Shown: piece by piece, positions 36,617-37,609 of the stretch | Position numbering within the stretch: position 1 is the first letter of the stretch | Layout: each line of letters starts with the position of its first letter | Assembly (NCBI RefSeq): GCF_032678705.1 | Contig: NZ_JAVTSS010000001.1 | Coordinates: 1 to 64,000 of the forward strand | Source of the DNA: Pedobacter frigiditerrae | GTDB lineage: Bacteria > Bacteroidota > Bacteroidia > Sphingobacteriales > Sphingobacteriaceae | DNA length: 64,000 bases | Direction: 5' to 3' | Notes under the pieces: generated by a model | The model's database searches: none | Told to the model about the DNA's origin: nothing | What the model saw: the letters and a program-made list of their open reading frames with translations, nothing else | Translations under genes and position numbers: made by a program

Positions 36617-37609
36617 TTATGTAGGATTTGATGCGAAAAAGGTTAAGGTATCTTGTTTATCTTGATGTAATTGTTCGGTTAAGGCCTCCAATCCAGTAAA
36701 TTTCACATCGTGACGTAAAAACTTTAAAAAATTCATTTTAATGGTTTGACCGTAAATCTCTCGATTAAAATCAAAAATATTCACTTCAATATTCCTTGTC
36801 ATTCCGTTAATGGTTGGGCGTTGCCCGATGTAGGCCATTCCTGTGTAAGTTTGGAGTTGAGAGTTTGGGGTTTTGAGTTCTAGTTCCAAACTCTCATCTC
36901 CAATCTCCGAGCTCATCTCAACTGTTACCGCATAAATGCCATCACTTGGGATGATTTTGTAAGTTTCTTCTACAAAAATGTTTGCTGTAGGGAAACCAAT
37001 TGTTCTTCCAATTTTGTCACCCTTTATAACTGGTCCACTAATAGAAAAATGATATCCTAAATATTTCGCAGCTAAAGAAACATCTCCATCTAACAATGCT
37101 TTACGAATTTTGGTAGAGCTTACAGCTACATCATTAATATCTTGTTCTGGAATTTCTTCAATCTCATATCCATACACTTTTGAAAACTGCTGTAGCTCAT
37201 TCATCCCACCTTTTCTGTCTTTCCCAAAACGGTGGTCGTAACCAACAATTATTTGTTTGGTCCCAATGGTATCTATCAATATGTTTTTGATATAATCTGT
37301 AGCATCAAGATTAGAAAAATCTCGTGTAAATGGCGTAATGATCAAATGGTCTACACCTAGATTCGCTAAAATTTCTGCCTTCTCTTTAATGGTGTTTATC
37401 ATTTTCAAATCTTGGTTTTCTGGATCGATAATCATCCGCGGGTGCGGGAAAAAAGTTAGAATTACACTTTCGCCGCCGGTAGATTTTGCCAATTCGCAAA
37501 GGCGTTTTATAATTTTTTGGTGACCATAGTGAACACCATCAAAAGTGCCGATAGTAACTACAGCATTATTTAGCTTTTTAAACTCAGAAAGTTGATTATA
37601 TATCTTCAA
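36617..37609 (-). CDS. ribF: Bifunctional riboflavin kinase / FAD synthetase
   Basis: 330 residues. The N-terminal FAD synthetase domain has TIGTFDGVHYGHQKII, TFFPHPR and VGYDHRFGKDRKGG. The C-terminal riboflavin kinase domain has GRTIGFPTANI, DGIYAVTVEM and MAYIGQRPTING. It makes FMN, then FAD. Residues about 232-254 (containing DESLELELKTPNSQLQTY) are an extra loop between two kinase strands and are encoded by a hairpin-forming repeat at 36851-36903. Last gene of the leftward operon that begins at ftsX; 10 bases after the YitT gene. Confidence 0.96.
   Translation of the reverse strand: MKIYNQLSEFKKLNNAVVTIGTFDGVHYGHQKIIKRLCELAKSTGGESVILTFFPHPRMIIDPENQDLKMINTIKEKAEILANLGVDHLIITPFTRDFSNLDATDYIKNILIDTIGTKQIIVGYDHRFGKDRKGGMNELQQFSKVYGYEIEEIPEQDINDVAVSSTKIRKALLDGDVSLAAKYLGYHFSISGPVIKGDKIGRTIGFPTANIFVEETYKIIPSDGIYAVTVEMSSEIGDESLELELKTPNSQLQTYTGMAYIGQRPTINGMTRNIEVNIFDFNREIYGQTIKMNFLKFLRHDVKFTGLEALTEQLHQDKQDTLTFFASNPT
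36851..36903. repeat. Imperfect inverted repeat inside the ribF coding sequence
   Basis: Arms TTGGAGTTGAGAGTTTGG (36851-36868) and CCAAACTCTCATCTCCAA (36886-36903) match in 17 of 18 pairs around a 17-base loop. The frame is kept, adding about 20 residues to RibF. The sequence style (runs of GAGTTTTGAG, CTCATCTCC) is that of intergenic repeats rather than of genes. Confidence 0.75.

Follow-up and report, generated by a model that had tools for sequence, protein, structure and literature searches.

A palindromic heptamer array in frame within ribF of Pedobacter and its dispersed relatives

Main finding

The essential vitamin-B2 enzyme gene ribF of Pedobacter frigiditerrae carries an in-frame insert that belongs to a repeat found at many other places in the same genome. 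Built of degenerate heptamers, the element forms a palindromic array with a purine-rich arm, a loop and a pyrimidine-rich arm, and is not a fixed palindrome. We consider it probable that the insert is the coding copy of a dispersed heptamer-array element of the Sphingobacteriaceae, housed at an old and tolerated site where a genome-wide process keeps rewriting it.

The insert and its host protein

In the window, by which we mean the whole stretch of 64,000 nucleotides that was analysed, ribF occupies positions 36617..37609 of the minus strand and encodes a bifunctional riboflavin kinase/FMN adenylyltransferase of 330 aa. Its apparent start is a TTG at window position 37609, upstream of which the frame is open and holds no ATG. 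Both expected domains are present (Pfam FAD_syn, E 1.9e-50; Flavokinase, E 2.3e-39), and among named species the protein is closest to RibF of P. frigiditerrae (95%). The variable stretch lies between the motifs IYAV and MAYIG (residues 229-257; 36839..36925, minus strand) and measures 87 nt, compared with 33 nt in a short-loop clade of the genus. The first-pass annotation had put the addition at about 20 residues; the insert is real but slightly smaller, since the 54 extra nt lengthen by 18 residues a short surface loop that has 11 residues in other RibF proteins of the genus.

As had been proposed at first pass, the insert falls between two strands of the kinase domain. In the AlphaFold model (overall pLDDT 75), residues 236-249 form a loop predicted to be disordered (pLDDT < 50), flanked by strands 224-233 and 252-263. 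The nearest solved structures are those of the Corynebacterium ammoniagenes FAD synthetase (4uze/2x0k, Z 28), whose own loop at the position of the insert is also longer. The earlier statement that RibF proteins normally run directly from one strand to the next holds for one Pedobacter clade and for some genera, but not for Corynebacterium. Given the disordered turn and the longer Corynebacterium loop, this turn looks tolerant of extra residues, and the insert peptide is probably tolerated rather than needed. The open frame and the conserved motifs suggest that RibF with the insert would still be active.

The inverted repeat seen at first pass is indeed there. On the minus strand, the purine-rich arm (36886..36906; sense AGATTGGAGATGAGAGTTTGG, translated in the ribF frame to IGDESLE) is followed by a 17-nt spacer forming the hairpin loop (36869..36885) and by the pyrimidine-rich arm (36848..36868; sense CCAAACTCTCAACTCCAAACT, translated in the ribF frame to PNSQLQT). 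The arms are 21 nt long and 90% complementary. The 18-nt arm of the first-pass annotation recurs nowhere in the window outside the two arms, which match it with 0 and 1 mismatch; 0.04 matches are expected by chance. The sense-strand RNA of the repeat folds at -27.3 kcal/mol (z = -6.6), a value equalled by none of 200 shuffles. A feature overlooked at first pass is that the arms consist of 7-nt units, on the plus strand agtttgg, agttgag and agtttgg; more generally, the units are AGTYNRR-like in the purine-rich arm and YYNRACT-like in the pyrimidine-rich arm. The self-match of the insert at lag 7 is 0.63, which was reached by 0 of 20,000 arm-wise shuffles preserving the base composition of the two halves.

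Other copies across the genome

Searching the genome (4.85 Mb, 4 contigs) with a 91-nt stretch, complemented by samples, locates partial or full copies at about 40 places (E<=10), the top non-self match being 81% identical over 63 nt (E 4e-10). The expectation of a dispersed and mostly intergenic repeat is borne out, and the possibility that the genome held no other copy is set aside. Several of the copies between genes are complete hairpins with purine-rich arm, loop and pyrimidine-rich arm. One full heptamer hairpin lies between divergent genes and runs up to the start codon of an rsmI-like gene (L008, C2:254849-254918). A 464-kb contiguous sample screened with a strict pattern contains 5 array loci, a number too small to be treated statistically.

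Other copies are read in frame, namely in aroA (NELGGKSLEFGSDSQPSTPNSQL), lysA (QLQTPNSKLST) and argC (SQNSQLST), and further ones lie in the open frames of a BtuF-like gene, an MqnD-like gene and at the end of miaA (these names were read from the translations). The ribF hairpin is open in only one of its six frames, which is the one ribF uses, while full copies in this genome have one to three of six frames open. The parallel drawn at first pass with the in-frame palindromic elements of Rickettsia holds for ribF and extends to aroA, lysA and argC. Because it is a palindrome of 7-nt units, the element tends to read SLEFGVW in its first arm and PNSKLQT in its second, whichever way it is oriented. 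ArgC of this genome also contains a second in-frame repeat-like stretch (APPPSGRAGVG; L027 / L260), which is G+C-rich and unrelated to the heptamer arrays; LPSGEGRGG occurs in the other ArgC loop of another species (L270).

Age of the ribF site

RibF was compared across 58 genomes of the genus and 80 named loci, in which the IYAV-MAYIG interval ranges from 11 residues in the short form to as many as 62. Heptamer inserts occupy the site in the majority of Pedobacter sampled and in no fewer than three further genera of the family, where they are built from other heptamers, so that the first-pass picture of a single intergenic hairpin inserted and fixed in this gene is not supported. On a ribF tree computed without the insert columns, insert presence requires only 2 changes. 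The 31 short-loop rows group together as a single clade, and the second short case, P. insulae, falls among the insert bearers. We rejected P. insulae (G022) as a clean empty site: it sits among insert bearers, and its short loop is more likely a collapsed array. A family-wide tree nests the short-loop clade among insert-bearing Pedobacter (moderate support, 91 and 95; midpoint root). The neighbours of this clade there are genera with 7-nt-periodic RibF inserts (L203-L205, L206, L208, L213), and more distant genera are mixed. With this midpoint root, the short loop is not favoured as the ancestral state. Occupation of the site probably goes back to before the genus and was later lost in places, as far as a tree of moderate support with a midpoint root can tell.

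These observations weigh against a recent event, in which a mobile palindromic element similar to those of Rickettsia would have entered an empty ribF site in frame, perhaps moved by a Y1/RAYT transposase. Such an event would account for the dispersed copies and for the in-frame copies in unrelated genes, and PF01797 (Y1) transposases are found in 34 of 36 genomes with the insert compared with 2 of 21 without it. We nevertheless regard it as unlikely, as the site is already filled in most sampled Pedobacter and in other genera, and the short-loop clade appears to have lost its insert. Moreover, the RAYT genes examined are flanked by unrelated REPs of their own and not by heptamer arrays: at the threshold used, no array was detected beside Y1/RAYT genes at 20 loci, several of which are flanked by other REPs. 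GTAG, in turn, is present at the outer end in just 11 of the 78 arrays. RAYT was accordingly rejected as the mover of the arrays in spite of the strong co-occurrence, there being neither an adjoining array nor a consistent GTAG tag. The co-occurrence of transposase and insert may reflect the common history of one repeat-rich clade. Y1/RAYT transposases are almost wholly confined to array-rich Pedobacter (e.g., L294, C1:250190-250522), and the short-loop clade has almost none.

Heptamer rhythm and sequence turnover at the site

The reading of the insert as the coding form of a dispersed array is supported by its periodicity. Over 64 distinct ribF inserts the match at lag 7 is 0.54 (0.48 at lag 14 and 0.45 at lag 21), as against 0.225 in the preceding 95 codons. 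Lag 7 is the best of lags 2-12 in 53 of the 64, and the 5' half is the purine-richer one in 60. The loops of aroA and argC in the same genus behave alike, each with a lag-7 match of 0.47, compared with 0.23 in a control downstream in aroA. The units themselves vary between species (AACTCYM, GGACTTC, GGACATC, AACCCTC), and the alignment gives no sign of the family-wide conservation of loop sequence that would have refuted the first-pass reading.

Lengths vary as well. Between two species whose ribF genes are otherwise 96% identical (L198 and L082), the arrays differ by exactly 21 nt, i.e., three units or seven codons. This does not amount to a strict rule of seven-codon steps, which we tried and rejected: among differing pairs with a core identity >=0.84, such steps are exact in only 32 of 149 (the pairs being non-independent), and one-codon differences are common among relatives. 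Length differences instead cluster at 1-2 and at 6-8 codons, with almost none at 3-5. Similar flavours of insert recur on distant branches while some close relatives have wholly different ones, which points to exchange or rewriting.

The state of the ribF insert can be set against the number of arrays in each genome, counted in 60 genomes with a three-heptamer pattern. The 21 genomes without the insert have a median of 0 arrays (maximum 2) and the 36 with it a median of 35 (p 6e-10, uncorrected for kinship). Among insert-bearing lineages of the genus, the heptamer strength of the insert rises with the number of arrays per Mb (rho 0.59, p 1e-4, across related species). In the five genomes of lowest density (<=1.2 arrays per Mb), the inserts are non-heptameric or have nearly or wholly vanished. 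Both the count and the decay correlations span related species, with only 2 insert changes on the ribF tree and too few independent pairs for a test. In addition, the three inserts tested all have their highest mean match with arrays of their own genome. Taken together, the array counts, the correlation with density, the period in aroA and argC and the own-genome match favour one genome-wide process that reaches coding copies. Heptamer arrays are patchy through the class Bacteroidia; since a reversed control pattern is sometimes equally frequent, this survey is only a lead.

The same data make it quite improbable that the insert is an ordinary hypervariable, low-complexity loop whose likeness to intergenic sequence is a coincidence of composition. 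The predicted disorder and the longer loops at this position in other RibF proteins, such as that of Corynebacterium, would fit such a loop. However, a 7-nt period is no multiple of 3 and is missing from the adjacent ribF sequence, close copies exist between genes, and the heptamer strength of the insert follows the array density of the genome. For the decayed inserts L062, L045 and L057, the description as an ordinary loop may hold.

Strong folding is not conserved at the site. Across the 64 inserts the median z is only -1.1, 30% fall below -2, and many arms no longer pair. As the letters differ widely and strong folds are confined to a minority, the conserved trait is the heptamer rhythm together with the purine-arm/pyrimidine-arm polarity, in place of the strong hairpin on which the first-pass annotation had focused. 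That the hairpin is a selected regulatory element of the ribF mRNA, acting on pausing, folding or stability, is hardly credible in spite of the strong fold of the P. frigiditerrae copy, given this median and the absence of the insert from whole clades.

Placement of arrays in other genomes

The position of arrays relative to genes was determined for 60 loci drawn from pattern hits in four other genomes, with genes called by simple open frames. Arrays were counted inside open frames 9 times and between genes 55 times. A gene 3' end is no more than 10 bp away in 25 of 48 cases, and a 5' end in 7 of 43 (p 4e-4). When an array is flush with a gene 3' end, its purine strand is in the sense of the gene (17 of 17; L312-L371). 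TAG stops are slightly enriched at flush arrays (9/17 vs 35/129), and part of the 3'-end placement could arise from arrays that themselves provide the stop codon.

In other Pedobacter species, in-frame arrays are seen in essential or core genes that are leuS-like (L349), ispG-like (L366), polysaccharide deacetylase-like (L322) and helicase-like (L355); the leuS-like and ispG-like cases are among the 9 arrays inside open frames. Long (AACCCTA)n arrays of up to about 157 bp also occur (L356, L345, L368, L336); plant telomeres are made of this heptamer as well.

A possible course of events

We propose that the ribF site was already occupied before the genus arose. Slippage within arrays, combined with gene conversion or re-insertion from other copies, would constitute the genome-wide process that goes on rewriting the insert, with selection demanding only an open frame and a length in multiples of three. 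Under this demand, pure heptamer changes would survive as three-unit steps of 21 nt or seven codons. Where the process stopped, the coding copy would decay into an ordinary loop or disappear. A broader version, which we put forward as a tentative idea with the odds against it, is that an active, undescribed process writes and homogenises lineage-specific heptamer arrays throughout the Sphingobacteriaceae, and perhaps much of the class Bacteroidia, both at gene ends and inside essential genes. If so, the sequence of a loop in a core enzyme would be set by the current repeat of the genome and not by selection on the protein.

To our knowledge, repeats lying in frame in essential genes have been described chiefly in Rickettsia. 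Pedobacter is a free-living genus with many sequenced species, in which one orthologous site can be followed over a long time as the insert is present, is rewritten, changes length by 21-nt steps, decays and is lost. Its division into array-rich and nearly array-free parts makes the cause of short-repeat spread in bacteria directly testable, and shows how new loops in proteins can originate from non-coding repeats.

Comparison with known repeat systems

We found no description of such arrays in Pedobacter or its relatives in the open-access literature. Rickettsia palindromic elements are dispersed and lie in frame in unrelated metabolic genes, the products of which probably still work (PMC10969869, PMC3733652). 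They are about 150 bp long and fall into ten families, in a description that makes no mention of heptamer arrays (PMC10969869). The Pedobacter element is likewise palindromic, dispersed and in frame in unrelated protein genes. In contrast to these elements with their family-specific sequence, it is about 60 nt long, consists of degenerate 7-nt units and differs between orthologous sites; its ribF site probably predates the genus, with the sequence rewritten among species.

The STRR of cyanobacteria are dispersed tandem heptanucleotide repeats that are mainly intergenic and patchy across lineages. Pedobacter similarly has tandem 7-nt units at many genomic places; the host, however, is not a cyanobacterium, and the units seen are AACTCYM, GGACTTC, AACCCTA and others. 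The TAACTGA repeats of Beggiatoaceae, cyanobacteria and a few Bacteroidetes are also dispersed tandem heptamers, mainly intergenic and patchy (PMC4679880). The Pedobacter heptamers differ from both: they are degenerate, are often arranged in two inverted arms, vary inside a species as well as from one species to the next, and turn up repeatedly in frame within core genes.

REP sequences, associated with RAYT, are short dispersed palindromes tagged with GTAG and CGTC (PMC3733652). The arrays resemble them in being short dispersed palindromes in genomes that also hold Y1 transposases. They differ in having no consistent tag (GTAG at 11 of 78 ends where 3.6 are expected, a count that covers GTAG) and in leaving the flanks of the Pedobacter RAYT genes to other REPs. 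As to MITEs, the ends of the element are its inverted arms, and no clean empty ribF site was found in which a target-site duplication could be read. The ribF insert is a real and unusual in-frame coding repeat, nearest to the Rickettsia palindromic elements by its placement in proteins and to the heptamer tandem repeats by its unit.
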